Positions 1,220 through 12,121 of a stretch of DNA of 64,000 nucleotides are shown piece after piece. Position 1 is the first letter of the stretch; every line of letters starts with the position of its first letter. This stretch comes from Sodalis ligni (GTDB lineage Bacteria > Pseudomonadota > Gammaproteobacteria > Enterobacterales > Enterobacteriaceae). The DNA lies in contig NZ_CP075169.1 of NCBI RefSeq assembly GCF_016865525.2, positions 2,046,337 to 2,110,336 on the forward strand, read 5' to 3'. The notes below the pieces were generated by a model that saw nothing but the letters and a program-made list of their open reading frames with translations, was not told the origin of the DNA and did not search any database. The translations under genes and the position numbers were made by a program.

Positions 1220-1235
1220 TGTCGGCTAGCTGACA
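1220..1235. promoter_or_regulatory. Candidate CooA (CO-sensing regulator) binding site
   Basis: The 16 bases TGTCGGCTAGCTGACA fit the published Rhodospirillum rubrum CooA consensus TGTC-R-N6-Y-GACA at every fixed position. The palindrome extends two bases outward on each side (TC...GA). It lies in the divergent space, 132 bp upstream of the cooM-like start and 298 bp upstream of hypC, so it is better placed for the hydrogenase operon. CooA itself is not in this window. The match is seen in the sequence; regulation is inferred. Confidence 0.65.
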
Positions 1236-2296: not shown

Positions 2297-2875
2297 ATGA
2301 AAGAACGAGAAAATGTCATTATTTACGCCAATGCGCTGAAGTGTCTTGGCTGCCATAGCTGTGAAATGGCCTGCGCGGTGGCCCACGGCGGCGACGGCAG
2401 TCTGGTGGCCGCCGTGACGAGTCAACTTCCCTTGCATCCGCGCATGAAGGTCGTGGCGTCCGGCGACATCACCATGCCGATGCAGTGCCGTCAGTGTGAA
2501 AACGCCCCCTGCGCGCTGGTGTGTCCCACCGGCGCCTGCCGCCAGGCGGACGGTCAGGTGCAAATCAATGAGGACAATTGCGTCGGCTGCAAACTGTGCG
2601 TGATGGTCTGCCCGTTCGGCGCCATTACCGTTCGGCGCGCAGCGGAGAAAGATCATTTCAGCGCCACCAATCAAGGCGTGGCGCAAAAATGCGATCTGTG
2701 CGTGGAGTGGCGTAAAAAACAGGGCAAAACCGAGACCGCCTGCGTCGAGTCCTGTCCCACCAAGGCCATTAGCCTGGTGGATATGAAGACTTATCGTCAG
2801 GCGCTGATCAAGGCCCGGGCCGGAGAATTGGCTCAATCTCAAAAGAATATTACCTTGGCATTAAGGGGACTGTAA
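2297..2875 (+). CDS. cooF: CooF, four-cluster ferredoxin-like electron carrier of CO dehydrogenase
   Basis: This 192-residue polyferredoxin resembles CooF, HycB and HydN. Four [4Fe-4S] motifs are visible: CLGCHSCEMAC near the start, CRQCENAPCALVC, CVGCKLCVMVC, and a split motif CDLC...ACVESC. CooF takes electrons from the B/D clusters of CooS and passes them to the hydrogenase. The ATG at 2297 is chosen over 2261 because it has a GAAGG ribosome site and removes an overlap with hypA. The stop shares its last base with the cooS start (TAATG), indicating translational coupling, as expected for partners made in step. Confidence 0.9.
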   Translation: MKERENVIIYANALKCLGCHSCEMACAVAHGGDGSLVAAVTSQLPLHPRMKVVASGDITMPMQCRQCENAPCALVCPTGACRQADGQVQINEDNCVGCKLCVMVCPFGAITVRRAAEKDHFSATNQGVAQKCDLCVEWRKKQGKTETACVESCPTKAISLVDMKTYRQALIKARAGELAQSQKNITLALRGL

Positions 2876-4785
2876 TGGATATCAAAATAAGATCGAGCGA
2901 TCCCGCCGTTATCGCACTGTGCCCTGTTGCTGAACAAGAAGGGATTGCGACGGTTTTCGATCGGTATGAAATGCAGCAGCCGCAGTGCGGTTTCGGCACG
3001 CTGGGCTTGTGCTGCCGTATTTGCTGGAAAGGGCCCTGCCGGGTGGATCCGTTCGGCGACGGCCCGCAGGCCGGTATTTGCGGCGCCGGCAAAGACACCA
3101 TCGTGGCGCGCAACCTGATTCGCATGATGGCCGCCGGAGCGGCTGCGCATTCGGAACACGGCCGGCATATCGCGCTGGCCATGCAGCGCGTCGGCAAAGG
3201 GGAACTGCCCGATTATCATATCCGCGACGAAGAGAAACTGAAAAGTATTGCCGGGCGGCTGGATATCGCCGTCGCCGACCGGACCATAACGGACATTGCC
3301 TACGACGTGGCCACCAAGACCCTGGAGGATTATCAGAATCAGGACAGCAAGGTTCCCTGCCACTGGATAAGCGCCTCGCTGCCGGCAAAACGCCTGTCGC
3401 TACTGGGAAAACTGGGAGTGTTGCCCCATAACATCGACGCCACGGTGGCGCAGATCATGTCTCGCACCCATATCGGTTGCGACGCCGACCCGGAAAACCT
3501 GGTGCTGGGCGGAATGCGCGGCGCCCTGGCGGATTTCAACGGCATGGCGCTGGCGACGGAGCTGTCGGACGCGATGTTCGGCACGCCGAAACCCGTTGTG
3601 ACCCAGGCCAATATTGGCGTTATCAAGAAACAGGCGGTGAATATCGCCGTTAACGGCCATAACCCGCTGCTCAGCGAAGTGATTTGCGATATCGCCAGCG
3701 AAATGAACAGCATTGCCCGGGACGCCGGCGCGTCGGAAGGCATCAATATCGTCGGTATCTGCTGCACCGGCAATGAAGTCATGATGCGCCACGGCATCCC
3801 GCTGGCCACCAACTATCTGTCGCAGGAAATGGCCATTTTCACCGGCGCGCTGGACGCAATGGTGGTGGACGTGCAGTGCATCATGCCGTCGCTGCCGCAA
3901 ATCAGCGAGTGTTATCACACCGAATTCATCACCACCATGGATGAAAACAAGATGCCGGGGGCACGCCATGTCAGTTTCCACGAAGACAAGGCCAGAGAAA
4001 CCGCCCGCAAAATCGTGCAGTACGCCATTGACGCCTATGGTCGCCGCGACGCCAAGCGCATCAATATCCCGGATATCAAACAGACCGCCATCGTCGGTTT
4101 CAGCAGTGAAGCGGTCATGGCGGCCCTGGCGACCCTCAACGCCGCAGACCCCCTGGCGCCGCTGGTGGAAAATATCGTCAACGGCAATATCCTCGGGGTG
4201 GCGCTGTTCGCCGGCTGCAACAGCACCCGCGCGATACAGGATGAGAATTTCCAGGTCATCGCCAAGATTCTGGCCCGCAACAATGTCCTGCTGCTGGCCA
4301 CCGGCTGCGGCGCGGGCGCATTCGCCAAACACGGCCTGATGAACCAGCAGGCCACCGAAGCTTGGGCAGGTGATTCGCTTAAGGCGGTATTAACCGCCAT
4401 CGGCGTGTCGGCGGGCCTGGAAGGGCCGTTGCCGCTGATACTGCATATGGGCTCCTGCGTGGATAACAGCCGGGCGGTGCAGTTGGCCACGGCGCTGGCT
4501 GACAGGCTGAACGTGGACCTCAGCGATTTGCCGCTGGTGGCCTCCGCGCCGGAAGCCATGTCGGAAAAAGCCATCGCCATCGCCAGCTGGAGCGTCGCCA
4601 TCGGTTTGCCGACCCATCTGGGCATCGTTCCCCAGGTCACCGGCTCAGCGGTGGTGACCGATCTGATTACCGAAGGGGCGAAAGATCTGTTCGGCGGCTA
4701 CTTCCTGGTGGAATCCGATCCGGCCCTGGCGGCGGAAAAACTGGTGGCGGTGATTCGCGAAAAACGTCACGCCTTGGGGATATAA
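2875..4785 (+). CDS. cooS: Anaerobic Ni-Fe-S carbon monoxide dehydrogenase catalytic subunit
   Basis: The 636-residue length is normal for CooS. It oxidises CO with water to CO2, two protons and two electrons. All metal ligands of the family are present: D-cluster Cys38 and Cys46; B-cluster Cys47, Cys50, Cys55 and Cys69; C-cluster His262, Cys296 (or 297), Cys335, Cys448, Cys478 and Cys528. Spacing matches Carboxydothermus CODH-II to within two residues, from memory of that structure. The frame is intact, unlike many neighbours. It lies between cooF (1-bp overlap) and cooC (2-bp gap). There is no acetyl-CoA synthase gene, so an energy-yielding rather than carbon-fixing role is inferred. Confidence 0.96.
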   Translation: MDIKIRSSDPAVIALCPVAEQEGIATVFDRYEMQQPQCGFGTLGLCCRICWKGPCRVDPFGDGPQAGICGAGKDTIVARNLIRMMAAGAAAHSEHGRHIALAMQRVGKGELPDYHIRDEEKLKSIAGRLDIAVADRTITDIAYDVATKTLEDYQNQDSKVPCHWISASLPAKRLSLLGKLGVLPHNIDATVAQIMSRTHIGCDADPENLVLGGMRGALADFNGMALATELSDAMFGTPKPVVTQANIGVIKKQAVNIAVNGHNPLLSEVICDIASEMNSIARDAGASEGINIVGICCTGNEVMMRHGIPLATNYLSQEMAIFTGALDAMVVDVQCIMPSLPQISECYHTEFITTMDENKMPGARHVSFHEDKARETARKIVQYAIDAYGRRDAKRINIPDIKQTAIVGFSSEAVMAALATLNAADPLAPLVENIVNGNILGVALFAGCNSTRAIQDENFQVIAKILARNNVLLLATGCGAGAFAKHGLMNQQATEAWAGDSLKAVLTAIGVSAGLEGPLPLILHMGSCVDNSRAVQLATALADRLNVDLSDLPLVASAPEAMSEKAIAIASWSVAIGLPTHLGIVPQVTGSAVVTDLITEGAKDLFGGYFLVESDPALAAEKLVAVIREKRHALGI

Positions 4786-4787
4786 GC

Positions 4788-5561
4788 ATGAAAATAGCCA
4801 TAGCGGGAAAAGGCGGCGTGGGCAAAACCACCCTGGCGGGATTACTGGCCCGCTCTTTCGCCGCGGAAGGAAAACACGTATTGGCCATTGATGCGGATCC
4901 CGATGCCAACCTGGCGTCGGCGCTGGGGATCCCCGCCGGGCGTTATGCCCACCTGCAGCCGTTTTCCCATATGAAGGACCTGGCGAAAGAGCGCACCGGC
5001 GCCGACAGCGGTTATGGCGGGCTGTTTATCCTTAACCCGAAGGTTGACGATCTGCCGGACGCCTTTTGCGTAGAGCATGCCGGGGTCCGCTTACTGCTGA
5101 TGGGCACCGTCGAACATGGCGGCACCGGCTGCGTCTGTCCGGAACATACCCTGCTGCGCAGCCTGATGAAGCACCTGCTGCTTGAACGCCGGGACCTGGT
5201 TATCATGGATATGGAAGCCGGCATCGAACATCTCGGCCGCTCCACCGCCGAGGCGGTTGATCTGCTTATCGTGGTGGTGGAGCCCGGACAGCGCAGCATC
5301 CAGACCACCCGGCAGATAGAGAAGCTGGCCGCCGACATCGGCATCAAAAAAATCGCTTATGTCGGCAGTAAAATCAAGAGCCAGGAAGATAAGGCCTTTT
5401 TGGCATCGGCGTTGCCGGCGGAAAAAATGCTTGGTTACCTCTCCCTGAACGAGACGATTCGCGATGCGGATCGCACCGGCGCCGCGCCTTATGATATCGG
5501 CGGCGATTTTCTGGAAGAACTGCGGGCCATCAAAACCCGGCTGCTGGACTATGCGGGATAA
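4788..5561 (+). CDS. cooC: CooC, nickel-insertion ATPase for CO dehydrogenase
   Basis: This 257-residue P-loop ATPase belongs to the MinD/SIMIBI class. It has the deviant Walker A GKGGVGKTT at residues 8-16 and the metal-binding CVC motif (Cys115, Cys117) followed by PEH, which in CooC proteins binds nickel or zinc at the dimer interface. The acidic switch segment DMEAGIEHLGR follows. CooC uses ATP to load nickel into the CooS C-cluster. The start is 2 bp after the cooS stop. A 138-bp gap without a clear gene separates it from cooT. Confidence 0.94.
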   Translation: MKIAIAGKGGVGKTTLAGLLARSFAAEGKHVLAIDADPDANLASALGIPAGRYAHLQPFSHMKDLAKERTGADSGYGGLFILNPKVDDLPDAFCVEHAGVRLLLMGTVEHGGTGCVCPEHTLLRSLMKHLLLERRDLVIMDMEAGIEHLGRSTAEAVDLLIVVVEPGQRSIQTTRQIEKLAADIGIKKIAYVGSKIKSQEDKAFLASALPAEKMLGYLSLNETIRDADRTGAAPYDIGGDFLEELRAIKTRLLDYAG

Positions 5562-5699
5562 GAACGGCCGGTATGCATGCCGAACAAATAGGCCGGGCAA
5601 GAAAAGCCGCATGAAAATGCCTGCTGAGAATGCCGATGTCAATATGGCCGGCGAGGGGGGACGAAAAACCGCCGCGCCGTCGCCAACAAGAGGTGATAT

Positions 5700-5897
5700 A
5701 TGTGCCAGCTTAAAGTCAGATTGATCCTGGCGGACAACCGGGAAGAACGGGTGGACGACGTTGCCCACATCGAGGTGTCGCCGGACAGGATCACCCTGTC
5801 GAGCCTGTTTGAGCCGCCCCGCGAGCTGTACGGCTTCCAGATTAAAGAAATTGACTGTCTGCGCAATTCCGTCTTGCTGGAATGGCGCGCCGCATGA
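5700..5897 (+). CDS. cooT: CooT, small nickel-binding protein
   Basis: This 65-residue protein begins MCQLKVRL. CooT proteins are small SH3-like dimers that bind one nickel through the N-terminal Cys2, preserved here. The remainder (VSPDRITLSSLFEPP) fits the family's beta-rich pattern. An AGAGGTG ribosome site precedes the ATG. The order cooF-S-C-T is the same as in Rhodospirillum rubrum, which makes the call firm despite the short length. It probably hands nickel to CooC or CooS. Confidence 0.85.
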   Translation: MCQLKVRLILADNREERVDDVAHIEVSPDRITLSSLFEPPRELYGFQIKEIDCLRNSVLLEWRAA

Positions 5898-5917: not shown

Positions 5918-6145
5918 ATGGCCGATAAAACATTAACTGAAAAACTAACCGTTATGTTGCCGCATTGGCTGGAGCACAACGAAGAGCATATCGCCGAAAT
6001 GCAAAAATACCTCCACGCCCTGGAAACAGAAGGGCAGACAGCGCTGGCCGGGGGATGCAGCGCCACCATCACGCAGATGAACCGCGTAAGCGATGCGTTA
6101 ACCGCCATGCTGGCGCTGCTTGATACGCCGTCCTCCCGGCATTGA
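5918..6145 (+). CDS. Short CooJ-like putative nickel-binding protein
   Basis: The 75-residue product sits where cooJ follows cooT in R. rubrum. It has HWLEHNEEH at residues 16-24, which reads as HW-X2-H-X3-H, a motif I recall as conserved in CooJ nickel chaperones. The rest is predicted helical with one Cys (GGCSAT) and a C-terminal His. It lacks the long His-rich tail of R. rubrum CooJ. The start at 5918 has a CGAGGA ribosome site; an upstream in-frame ATG would overlap cooT. A nickel role is inferred from motif and position. It could instead be an unrelated small helical protein. Confidence 0.62.
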   Translation: MADKTLTEKLTVMLPHWLEHNEEHIAEMQKYLHALETEGQTALAGGCSATITQMNRVSDALTAMLALLDTPSSRH

Positions 6146-6291
6146 TCCGATTCCGGCCGTATGGGAAAGGCCGCCGCCCCGCCGCCCCGCCGGGCCGCGA
6201 AGGCGGCTAACTCGCCCGGCGGCGCGCCAAGGCGCGGGAGCAAGAATTGATATCATCACCGTGGCCACACGACGGCCACTAGGGTAAAAGT

Positions 6292-7047
6292 ATGTGCAAC
6301 AGCTGTGGCTGCAATATCACTACCGGCAGCCGTCTGTTATTGAAAAACGGCGCCATACGCGCCATTCGCCCGCTGAAACCGGCCGCGCCGCGCTCCATCG
6401 AAGTCCTGCAGAATCTGCTGCAGGATAACGATCGGCAGGCGGAACGGAACGCCGCGTTGTTTAATGCCCAAGGCACGGTAGTATTCAATCTGATGTCATC
6501 CCCCGGCAGCGGCAAGACCGCCCTGCTGGAGGCCACCATTGAACGGTTGACGGCCCGGGGACTGAACATCGGCGTCATCGAAGGGGATTTGGAAACCGAA
6601 AACGACGCGGTACGCCTGCGTAAAAAAGGCGTGCCGGTGGTGCAGATTACCACCGGAATGGCCTGCCATCTGGATGCGGCCATGATCCGGTCCGCCTATC
6701 AGCAGCTCGCCGGCGCGGCGATGGATATCCTGTTTATCGAAAATGTCGGTAATTTGGTGTGCCCGGCCAGCTTTGCCTTGGGGCAACACTATGACGTGGT
6801 GTTGCTATCGGTGCCGGAAGGGGACGACAAGCCGGAAAAATACCCGGTGATGTTCCGGCTGGCGGACAAGGTCCTGGTCACCAAAACCGATCTGCTGCCC
6901 TATTTTGACGATTTCAGCGTGGCGCGGGTACGGGACGAAATCAGCCTACTGGCCAATCATACCGACGTGCTGGAAGTGTCGTCCAAAACCGGACGGGGCA
7001 TGGATGGCTGGCTCGACTGGCTGGCAGGAGCGATCGCCGAGGCTTGA
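6292..7047 (+). CDS. hypB: HypB, nickel-inserting GTPase
   Basis: This 251-residue SIMIBI GTPase has the N-terminal nickel site MCNSCGC (Cys2, Cys5, Cys7), as in E. coli HypB. Its P-loop is SSPGSGKT at residues 69-76, followed by EGDLET, the G-domain metal site GMACH, ENVGNLVCP and the base-recognition motif TKTD. HypB delivers nickel to hydrogenase with HypA. It lacks the His-rich tract seen in some HypB proteins. It closes the coo operon after a GC-rich 146-bp gap containing inverted repeats, so it may be partly uncoupled from the upstream genes. Confidence 0.94.
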   Translation: MCNSCGCNITTGSRLLLKNGAIRAIRPLKPAAPRSIEVLQNLLQDNDRQAERNAALFNAQGTVVFNLMSSPGSGKTALLEATIERLTARGLNIGVIEGDLETENDAVRLRKKGVPVVQITTGMACHLDAAMIRSAYQQLAGAAMDILFIENVGNLVCPASFALGQHYDVVLLSVPEGDDKPEKYPVMFRLADKVLVTKTDLLPYFDDFSVARVRDEISLLANHTDVLEVSSKTGRGMDGWLDWLAGAIAEA

Positions 7048-7090
7048 ACCGAGCGTGTTAAAGCGATCGCGTGTTAAAGGGAAACCGCCG

Positions 7091-8977
7091 TCACTGCGGC
7101 ATGGAGTTGGCGGCATCCTCGGCAAGTTTGTTGACGGTATTCTGATAAATGGAATCAGGATCGTCCCCCTCCCGTGGCTGATTGAATTTCACCTTGCCGC
7201 GATAAACATCGCTATCGATTTTCACAATCTTGGGATGAGTATTAAGCGTACCTGTCGCCACGCAGGTATTATTCACCTGATTCAGCTGATCGTCCCAGAC
7301 ATTGGCCATTTTGGTACAATCATCCACCCAGACAAATTTTTCATTGGCATCCAGCTTAGCCAATTGCTGATTCAGCGGAACCGACAAATACACATCAAAC
7401 ATAGGTTCCACCCGGTTCTTTCCACTTTCAAAATTAACGGCGTCTTGAAACTCACGCCATTGAACTTAATGGTTTTGGACGCAACGTCGATTTTATACTT
7501 AGTGATTTTGCGCGGGAAATCCCACTGCCGGATAATGGCCGGTATCCAGCCGGTTATTTTTGATTGATATTCATAAAATAGGTTGCCAAAGAGACGTTCG
7601 AAAGGCTGCTGCGGCCTAAACCGATGAAATTATCACCCCCAGCACATCCAGCACCGTGGCGCCGTTATCCAGCGTGCTTCTCTTTACATTTATTTCCTGC
7701 TTTTTATCCGTATCGCCGCGAATGATAAAAAACAAATCCTTCCGATCATTTTTGGTTAATATGTCATAGGCAGTATTGTTCATGGCCAGATGATCGGAAG
7801 AAACCACAATCACTGTATTACTGAAATAGGGTGATTGTTTTATTTTATCAATCAGGTCCGCGATATGTTGCTGGCTGCAGGCAACGGCGCTCAGGGAGCT
7901 GTTTTCCACATGATTAAATTCGTAGGTTTTTTTAGTACAGGTTCTGGAAATATAACCATCCGGATGATGGGTATCCACCGTTAAAGCAAACAAAGCGAAT
8001 CGTTTATTCTCTTTGGACAGCTCGACATATTTATTATAAACGATATCCAATAGGGTATCGTCATACCAGCCCCATTCATTTTTGTAATTCGGGTCCTCCA
8101 CCTGATCCTGCAACTCCTGGAGCCCGTATAAATGATCGATACCGTGAGACTTCAAAAACAGGCCTTTACCACCGAAGGCCAAATCGGCGCCCTGGTAAAA
8201 ATAGGTGTCATAGCCTGAAGAGTGAAGAACGTCGCCCAGGCAAACCGCATGGGGATAGAAGGTAGACAGGGAACTGGATGCATTGCCGTCAAAGGGGGCG
8301 AATAAAGGGATACCGCACTGGGACGCCACAATGCCGGCAATGGTATAGCCCGTGCCGGGTAACTGGATAGTATTTTCAAAAGAAGTGGAATCGACTTTAT
8401 CCGAATTGAGCTCGGAGGTTAAACCGGGAAATACATCTTGATCAAAATAGGTCTTTTCCAGGCTTTCGGCATAGATATAAATTAAATTGGGCTTTTTGCC
8501 CGACATGGTTTTTTTGGGTGTTTTATAATAGCTATAAAAATCGGATTTATCCTGACCGAATTCAGACTTCATCAAGCCGGCAATTTCCCCGAACGCCGGA
8601 GTGACCACCACCGAGGCGCCGGCGAAAATCAAAGCCAGAATACTGTATAAGACATTAGTATTTTTGCCGCTGGTCCTGAGCAAAACCCATGACATCAAGC
8701 CGAACACCGCCAGGGAAACCAGTAAAAAACCCGCAAAGGGTAAGATGTATTTCCCCACGCCGGCGCCGGTGAGATTGCTGGTAATGGTATACAAGACTGA
8801 ATCGTTGATACCGTCGCCGGTAAAATAATTACTGGCTACTCGAATTAAATTAAGAACAATATAAAGCCCTAGTATAAATAATACTAATATAAACCATAGC
8901 TTATTTCGATCGGCCCGCAGCGAGTATATTATGATGGATGTCACAAATAACACAGCTGAAAGTATTTCTGCAGACAT
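7091..8977 (-). pseudogene. opgB: OpgB (MdoB) phosphoglycerol transferase I, three frameshifts and short C-terminus
   Basis: OpgB moves phosphoglycerol from phosphatidylglycerol to periplasmic glucans. The start at 8977 gives 453 intact residues: four N-terminal membrane helices, then an alkaline-phosphatase-like domain (YIYAESLEKTYFD, LPGTGYTIAGIVASQCG, VDTHHPDG, VVSSDHLAMNN). The frame breaks at a C run (7636-7640), a T run (7557-7561) and near 7412-7420; similarity to E. coli OpgB continues across all three (DNFIGLGRSSLS, GWIPAIIRQWDFP, KFVWVDDC). The final stop at 7091 comes well before the end of the 763-residue E. coli protein. It converges on hypB. Confidence 0.88.
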
Positions 8978-9332: not shown

Positions 9333-9490
9333 TTACTGCCCGCCGTCCGCCACCAGTCGGGTAAAACGGATTTGATGGCTGACGATTATCATGCTCAGCC
9401 CGAACGCCTGCGCCAGGCTGCGGATGATTTTCAGCGCTTTATCCACCCGATTGGCATCCTGCGCGGGGAGGGTGCGAGTGGACGGTTTGT
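9333..9490 (-). pseudogene. Remnant of a polar amino acid ABC transporter ATPase
   Basis: Reading the minus strand gives about 50 residues including DANRVDKALKIIRSLAQ and MIIVSHQIRFTRLVAD. This resembles the stretch from after Walker B to the H-loop (IIVTHEMGFAREVAD) of HisP/GlnQ-type ATPases. Both ends are missing: there is no P-loop or signature motif nearby, and it stops soon after the H-loop. It is a relic of a lost importer. Confidence 0.45.
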
Positions 9491-10412: not shown

Positions 10413-11746
10413 TTATTCGGGGACTTTCTTCAGTTCAAGCCGCTGGATTTTACCCACCACCAGCAGATAACAGAGCATGGACATCAGCGCCGAACAGCCG
10501 ACGAAGATCAGCGCGGCGTTAAACGAATGCAGGCCCTTGACCAGATAGCCGATCAGCAGCGGCGTCACGATGGATGCCACATTGCCGAACATATTAAAAA
10601 TCGCGCCGCACAGTCCGATGACCTCTTTGGGCGCGGTATCGGCGATAACCGGCCAACCCAGCGCGCCGAAACCTTTGCCGAAGAAGGCCAAGGCCATCAG
10701 CGCCACCACCAAAACGGTGTTATTGGTGTAGTTGCACAAAATCATGCTTGACGCCAACAGCATGCCGAAAACAATCGGTGCCTTGCGGGCAAAGGTCAAG
10801 GAACAGCCGCGTTTGAGCAGCAGATCGGAAACCATGCCGCCGGAAATGCCGCCCAAAAGCCGCATATCGCCGGAATAGAGGCAATGATACCCACTTTCAT
10901 AATGGTCATGCCTTTTTCCTGCACCAGATAAATCGGGAACCAGGTCAGGAAAAACCAGGTAATGGTATTTAAAAAATACTGGCCGAAAAATATACCCAGC
11001 ATCATTCGACTGCTTAATAGCTGTTTGACATAATTCCATTTGGGGCCTTGGCGGGCGCTTTTTTTCTGATCCATATTCACTACGCCGCCGCCCTGTTCAA
11101 TATAATCGAGTTCTTCACGGGAAGCGTAGGGGGATTCAAACGGGTTATGAACGAATTTGGTCCATATAATGGTTAATACAAATCCGATGACGCCCATAAT
11201 GACAAAGACGTGTTGCCAGCTCCAGGCATAAACCAGCCAGCCAAGAAACGGCGAGAAAATGGCCAGTGAGAAATATTGCGCCGCATTGAATATGGATGAG
11301 GCGGTGGCGCGCTCTTTGGCGGGGGACCAGGCGGGGACTATTCGCGCATTGGCTGGGAAAGCCGGCGCTTCGGCAAAACCAAGCATAAACTGCAGCATAA
11401 ACAGTGATAACACGGCGGCGGAAATGGATAATCCGCCGACAAATCCCTGCAACAGGGTAAACAGCGACCAGAAAAACAGACTAAAGCTGTACACTTTTAT
11501 GGAACCGAACTTGTCCAGCAGCCAGCCGCCCGGTATTTGCATTACCAGGTAGGCAATACCGAAGGCGGAAAATATCTGGCCCAAATCCACTACGTCTAAC
11601 CCCAGCTCTTTCGAGACCTGCGTACCGGCAATGGACAGGGTAACCCGATCGGCATAATTTACCGCTGTAATAATGAAAATAATGAGCAAAACATAAAAAC
11701 GGACGTGAGTTCGTTTTTTAGTTAATAAACTCGTTTCAACCGCCAT
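10413..11746 (-). pseudogene. MFS sugar-acid permease (GudP/GarP-like), one frameshift
   Basis: It belongs to the anion:cation symporter family of MFS carriers that take up glucarate, galactarate and related hexonates. The ATG at 11746 gives MAVETSLLTKKRTHVRF and then the family segments NYADRVTLSIAG, GGWLLDKFGS, GFAEAPAFPANARIV. The frame is lost in an A run at 10855-10858 (apparent loss of one base). It resumes as GGISGGMVSD, FFGKGFGALGWPV and ADTAPKEVIGL to the stop at 10413. Twelve helices are expected. No hexarate catabolic genes are adjacent, so the substrate is unknown. The neighbouring MITE-like element ends 28 bp beyond the stop. Confidence 0.82.
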
Positions 11747-12121
11747 GATATTTCTCCACGTGAATTTTGCTTTTGCGTGCGGCATGTGCTGCGGAGCTGT
11801 TAAAAAGCCCGTTAGACATAAATATAATTGTGAAAAGGAAAGCATTAATTAAGGCGGGCATTTTCACAATGAAATTCCCTGCAGCGAAAATAACGTCTCA
11901 TCAACCGCTCCGCTCTTTTGCCGAGAATGGCAGTATAAAAGCGGGGTGGCTAAGTCATTATGCAAATGACCAATCTTATGGCGGTTCAAGGGTCTTTTGT
12001 GATATCAGGTTGAATGTGCTTAAGGTCACATTACGACAACATGGCGTGGAAGAATATTCAAAATATGACAATAATCACAATGGGTTGGGCGGATGCCAGA
12101 CTTTTGCGGTTATATGCCCAA
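11747..12121. other. Intergenic stretch, no gene seen
   Basis: These 375 bp lie upstream of the MFS gene and downstream of the sugar operon. A plus-strand open frame here has no family similarity and unusual composition, so no gene is called. It probably holds the MFS promoter. Confidence 0.5.

Follow-up and report, generated by a model that had tools for sequence, protein, structure and literature searches.

Genes and regulatory site of the coo locus

The window analyzed here is a 64-kb stretch of a Sodalis genome (G000:C1, positions 2046337 to 2110336), and it opens on two divergently oriented sets of coo and hyp genes. The plus strand carries, in order, hypC (1533 to 1781), hypA (1942 to 2280), a cooF-like ferredoxin gene (2297 to 2875), cooS (2875 to 4785), a cooC-like ATPase gene (4788 to 5561), cooT (5700 to 5897), a cooJ-like small open reading frame (ORF) of 75 amino acids (5918 to 6145), and hypB (6292 to 7047). 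The open frame of cooS encodes the 636-amino-acid catalytic subunit of a Ni-CODH, as evidenced by a TIGR01702 score of 765 bits (cut-off, 478). The products of hypC, hypA, cooT, and hypB also match their families above the cut-offs (TIGR00074, TIGR00100, PF10133, and TIGR00073, respectively). The names cooF, cooC, cooJ, and cooK through cooH were assigned by position along with family matches that mostly fall under the family cut-offs, such as the 4Fe-4S matches of the cooF-like gene, which precedes cooS, and the P-loop ATPase matches of the cooC-like gene. The cooJ-like ORF has no family match in Pfam or NCBIfam and was named by position; matches at 33 to 39% lie between cooC and hypB in loci L035, L070, L107, and L108.

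On the minus strand, the start of cooM, the first hydrogenase gene, occupies positions 1 to 1088 of the window; cooM heads a cooM-cooK-cooL-cooX-cooU-cooH series, which lies mostly beyond the window and is followed by cooA on the opposite strand. The closest named relative among the CooS loci is that of Sodalis sp. dw_96 (L021), whose CooS is 97% identical. The cooM leader (1124 to 1199) contains about 55 bp of extra DNA compared with L021, and L022 and L023 likewise have a gap there.

A first-pass annotation of this DNA claimed an exact CooA consensus site between the hydrogenase and CODH units, and both parts of the claim are borne out. The sequence TGTCGGCTAGCTGACA at 1220 to 1235, a palindromic feature with no strand, fits TGTC-R-N6-Y-GACA with 0 mismatches, and it is flanked by the ATG codons of cooM (1088, minus strand) and of hypC (1533, plus strand), the gene that leads the CODH series. 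The site is the core of a longer, 20-bp imperfect palindrome, TCTGTCGGC-TA-GCTGACAGA (1218 to 1237), whose arms differ by one mismatch. It is the only exact match to TGTC-R-N6-Y-GACA in the window, where 0.105 is expected per shuffled window (200 dinucleotide shuffles), and of 20,000 shuffled versions of the 444-bp region between cooM and hypC, 3 contained an exact site. Across the whole genome (6,443,694 bases, one contig), the full-length pattern TGTCRGC-N2-GCYGACA is fitted completely at 1220 to 1235 only. When one mismatch is allowed, there are 13 genomic sites (this one and 12 others with one mismatch) versus 1 for the control pattern. Coarser patterns lose this discrimination: the loose core TGTC-N8-GACA is little informative because it occurs 39 times in the genome versus 29 times for a reversed control pattern, and a two-mismatch scan of the window is uninformative (70 matches versus 64.8 expected). 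No second exact CooA box was found on the CODH side in the window. A candidate at 1254 to 1269 was rejected; it has 2 mismatches, and it is present in L021 and absent from L022 and L023.

Conservation points to the same 16 bp. When the intergenic regions of L017 (the window's own locus), L021, L022, and L023 are aligned, no invariant stretch between cooM and hypC is longer than 1216 to 1227 and 1229 to 1240; these two runs, of 12 letters each, make up the site and its edges. Shorter invariant runs lie at 1090 to 1099 and 1312 to 1321 (10 letters each) and at 1258 (AATATG), and there are two of 5 letters. A broader survey of CooS loci, in which 80 of 97 loci found were kept, separated 22 loci with cooM from 58 without it. 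The exact box occurs in 15 of the 22 cooM loci, and in 14 of the 22 it lies within the 600 bp that precede a coo or hyp start; it occurs anywhere in 6 of the 58 loci that lack cooM (917 kb). Among the seven cooM loci without an exact box, L038 has the looser TGTC-N8-GACA and the other six have none. L021, L022, L023, and the window have a single shared box, while L024, L026, L027, L028, L033, L035, and L070 have two boxes near coo or hyp starts. Judged by its sequence context, the site at 1220 to 1235 looks like a genuine CooA docking site between two CO-to-hydrogen operons.

The CooA regulator and additional promoter elements

A gene for a CRP/FNR-family protein, cooA, lies at genome positions 2039303 to 2039972, past cooH and just outside the window, 7.6 kb from the site. 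The first-pass annotation predicted a CO-sensing CRP-family regulator elsewhere in the genome. The gene is present, but it belongs to the same cluster, and the outcome that the annotation had named as counting against its proposal, a genome with no CooA-like gene, did not occur. The predicted protein matches PF00027 and PF13545 above their cut-offs (a CRP/FNR-type sensor domain and a helix-turn-helix domain), while no NCBIfam model scores above its cut-off. Its best matches among solved PDB chains, 2fmy, 2hkx, and 1ft9, are all CooA.

The annotation had also proposed a genome search for a CooA homologue with the haem-ligand residues, and the outcome was mixed. Relative to Rhodospirillum rubrum CooA, the homologue keeps His77, but it has Ser in place of Cys75, and both the whole related copy P0001 and the first cooA frame of this genome start with M-R-S-K rather than with the Pro2 or Ala2 of other CooA proteins. 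The serine is common. Among 85 homologues collected with the L021 CooA as the query (E of ≤1e-20), a query and cut-off that favor Sodalis-type CooA, the Cys75 column contains Ser in 67, Thr in 13, Ala in 3, Phe in 1, a gap in 1, and Cys in 0. The His77 column of the same set contains His in 83, Gly in 1, and a gap in 1. Cysteine at position 75 is present in the CooA proteins of loci L038 and L039. The redox switch of R. rubrum should therefore not be assumed for the 85 homologues, since none has Cys at the aligned position.

Two further observations concern CO sensors. RcoM was considered as an alternative sensor and rejected: a search for LytTR domains returned two matches in the genome, neither of which looks PAS-LytTR-like. 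One is a BtsR response regulator above the cut-off, and the other, spread over two frames, matches a LytR-type response regulator under the cut-off. Separately, locus L106 (G348) encodes a CooA that is 60% identical (4991 to 5662) and has an exact CooA box at 6222, some 560 bp upstream. That genome has no CooS match at an E value of 1e-50, and a neighboring gene encodes 4Fe-4S domains; this CooA is possibly used for something other than CODH.

Candidate promoters can be placed on both sides of the site. For cooM, TAAATT on the minus strand (1194 to 1199) would serve as a −10 hexamer and would put the site center at about −40.5; the corresponding candidate gives −41.5 in L021 and L022 (TAAATT) and in L023 (TACATT). 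For the CODH operon, CAATAT on the plus strand (1257 to 1262) would put the site center at −41.5, and it overlaps the AATATG that is invariant in four loci. The candidate −10 hexamers were picked after inspection and are weak: they match 3 or 4 of 6 letters (CAATAT, 3), and equal or better scores are found for hexamers at other spacings. The spacings would fit class II activation, a geometry known for CRP-type activators, by CooA on both sides.

The intergenic region also contains a CRP-like box, TATGATCGCGCTCACT (1315 to 1330, no strand), with 2 mismatches to the CRP consensus TGTGA-N6-TCACA. The left part of this box falls in AAATATGATC (1312 to 1321), one of the runs that are invariant in four loci. 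At the same place, L022 has three mismatches to the CRP consensus and one to the FNR box, TTGAT-N4-ATCAA, and the factor acting at 1315 to 1330 is uncertain because the L022 counterpart is closer to an FNR box.

Exact FNR boxes occur twice in the locus. The first, TTGATCTCAATCAA (1426 to 1439, no strand), is upstream of hypC, and the second, TTGATATTGATCAA (9242 to 9255 of L017), starts 61 bp before the cooA ATG. Genome-wide, there are 23 exact FNR boxes versus 0 matches to a control pattern, and 2 of the 23 are those that precede the CODH operon and cooA; when the intergenic region was shuffled 20,000 times, an exact box arose in 24 cases. In L021, both boxes are exact. In L022, a one-mismatch box precedes cooA and none occupies the hypC-side place. 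In L023, the boxes on the hypC side all have two mismatches, and no box precedes cooA. No good −10 hexamer was seen by eye at the −41.5 spacing from the FNR box. A box with 0 or 1 mismatch was found in none of 14 upstream regions from L024 to L028, L033, L035, L070, and L106 to L108, so among the loci examined such boxes are confined to Sodalis-type loci. The idea that FNR is a general substitute for Cys75 is not supported: the CooA proteins of L023, L025 to L028, and L106 lack the cysteine, yet these loci have no box with 0 or 1 mismatch (for L023, upstream of cooA).

Genes for CRP and FNR are present in the genome as open frames that score above NCBIfam cut-offs, and the FNR boxes and the CRP-like box form a pattern suggesting a gate for CO, oxygen, and carbon. 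A more specific proposal is that, in the Sodalis lineage, oxygen gating moved from the sensor, a CooA without the redox cysteine, to the promoter, such that FNR would control cooA and the CODH operon, CRP would add carbon source control, and one locus would integrate CO, oxygen, and carbon supply. We consider this proposal speculative and rather unlikely. The FNR boxes provide a testable idea for how oxygen might be sensed without the cysteine of R. rubrum.

Interrupted frames and competing interpretations

In this genome, cooA is not a single uninterrupted frame. The frame from the ATG at 9303 of L017 stops after about 24 to 25 codons, and the rest of the gene forms an open frame that begins with a TTG at 9364. 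The gene is whole in L021, L022, and L023 and in P0001, a 223-amino-acid protein from an assembly whose longest contig is 6.38 Mb; P0001 has one difference to the 198-residue CooA body, and its first 24 residues match. (The proteins of L019 and L020 are identical to those of L021 and L022.) Likewise, cooM is spread over three frames, with changes near 540 and 248. The three pieces match P0086, a protein of 1,267 amino acids encoded on a contig of 14.8 kb, at 96%, 100%, and 99%, and cooM is in one frame in all seven relatives checked (L021, L022, L023, L025, L026, L027, and L028). Compared with L021, cooA lacks 2 bp, and cooM has two deletions, of 16 bp and 2 bp. Because the CooM of L021 has 1,272 amino acids and P0086 has 1,267, we infer natural variation as the source of 15 of the 16 bp. 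Neighboring genes are affected too: a sulfatase domain gene (7086 to 8977) that is a 629-codon frame in L021 is broken here (453 codons), and a major facilitator superfamily (MFS) transporter gene (10413 to 11848) with 462 codons in L021 falls into two frames. With cooA and cooM both interrupted, it cannot be taken for granted that this strain responds to CO.

One explanation, to which we give somewhat less than an even chance, is that the breaks are artifacts of sequencing or assembly and the circuit is intact. The breaks relative to L021 are deletions, and of seven measured in or beside cooA, cooM, the sulfatase domain gene, and the MFS gene, four (in cooA, the sulfatase region [two], and the MFS gene) lie in homopolymer runs that are shorter here. 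Far from the window, a LytTR response-regulator-like gene (L109, 1067 to 1800) extends over two overlapping frames, which is another sign of frame breaks in the assembly. However, rpoB is whole (a 1,356-codon frame), and the ORF list, which covers this genome alone, has long frames over much of the window from 12 to 25 kb. Also, both cooM breaks and one break in the sulfatase region are exceptions to run shortening.

The other explanation, which we consider about equally probable, is that the operator is real but orphaned: cooA and cooM would be recent pseudogenes and the site a remnant, with the CODH genes still open. The cooA and cooM deletions, with neither cooM break in a run shorter than that of L021, are consistent with this possibility, as are the disruption of the sulfatase domain and MFS genes, the intact rpoB, and the openness of the remaining coo and hyp frames. 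On the other hand, near-identical whole proteins exist (P0001 and P0086), the breaks in cooA, the sulfatase region (two), and the MFS gene resemble assembly errors, no decay is visible in the operator, and translation could still begin at the downstream TTG to give a shortened CooA. If the breaks are real, this would be a case in which a gas-sensing circuit loses its sensor before its operator.

With regard to the site itself, we consider it very probable that CooA has its operator at 1220 to 1235, within a divergent CO-oxidation/H2-evolution locus of a bacterium of the genus Sodalis, where CO-activated CooA, using His77, would act on both operons. In the mechanism that we consider most likely, CO would bind to the haem of the CooA dimer, with His77 as an axial ligand, and would thereby free the N-terminal ligand, after which the dimer would bind to 1220 to 1235. 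With a plausible start about 41 bp from the site center on each side, CooA could then act as a class II activator and bring RNA polymerase to both operons. The CRP-like and FNR boxes in the intergenic region may add carbon source and oxygen inputs.

It is very improbable that this site is chiefly bound by CRP and not by CooA. The site does resemble the CRP consensus, with 3 mismatches, but it fits the CooA consensus without any, and a better CRP-like box is available 95 bp away (1315 to 1330). The authors of the work on Citrobacter amalonaticus Y19 proposed that CooA and CRP motifs overlap (PMC5371261). Finally, a chance palindrome is a negligible prospect; although the loose core is not much more frequent in the genome than its control, the shuffle tests and the conservation across loci argue against coincidence.

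Distribution and comparison with known systems

The genome analyzed here is included in each of the following counts. CooS is found in three of six genomes of the genus Sodalis. Of 60 relatives, 3 have CooA (E of ≤1e-30); samples of 394 genomes from the order and 369 from the class contain 5 and 1 with CooA, respectively. The cooS DNA has no match in the complete genomes of Escherichia coli, and three plasmid records have distant CooS matches. The literature searched, which was mostly open access, yielded no description of the Sodalis coo locus.

The CooA consensus of R. rubrum, TGTC(A/G)N6(C/T)GACA, is quoted in PMC5371261, and R. rubrum shares with Sodalis this operator consensus, a CRP/FNR-type regulator, and His77. 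It differs in that Sodalis has Ser for Cys75, no Pro2, and one exact operator between both operons. In R. rubrum CooA, Cys75 is exchanged for His77 upon reduction, whereas Carboxydothermus hydrogenoformans CooA, with Ala2 and His82 as ligands, undergoes no ligand transfer upon redox change (PMC6955866), so a Cys75 ligand is not a feature of every CooA. The C. hydrogenoformans protein (2fmy and 2hkx) is the best match to Sodalis CooA among solved chains and shares its GDIF-x-THTRAF motif, but it has Cys where Sodalis has Ser, and Ala2 where the whole related copy has M-R-S-K.

For Desulfovibrio and R. rubrum, the CooA consensus is given as TGTCGGCNNGCCGACA, and the site of Desulfovibrio vulgaris cooSC, TGTCGGCTAGCCGACA, is one letter off the Sodalis site (PMC545781). 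Unlike in Sodalis, the CODH and hydrogenase genes of Desulfovibrio are in separate operons, and the hydrogenase operon has an HcpR site next to its CooA site (PMC545781).

The closest parallel comes from C. amalonaticus Y19, for which the divergent arrangement and a nearly identical site are already published. The cooM and hypC operons of Y19 diverge from a region with a CooA site between them, and both need CO and are expressed at low levels on glucose (PMC5371261). The Y19 site, TCTGTCAGC-N2-GCTGACAGA, has one arm letter different from the Sodalis site (PMC5371261). Y19 CooA (P0015), like that of Sodalis, begins with M-R-S-K and has Ser in place of Cys75. Y19 responds to CO (PMC5371261). Differences are found in the promoter region: Y19 is reported to have another CooA motif, a weaker one, on the CODH side, as well as CRP motifs that overlap its CooA motifs, and the Y19 paper does not mention FNR (PMC5371261). 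In Sodalis, the CRP-like box stands apart from the CooA site, and the region contains an exact FNR box. The Citrobacter-type CO-inducible hydrogenogenic locus, operator included, thus also occurs in the genus Sodalis.
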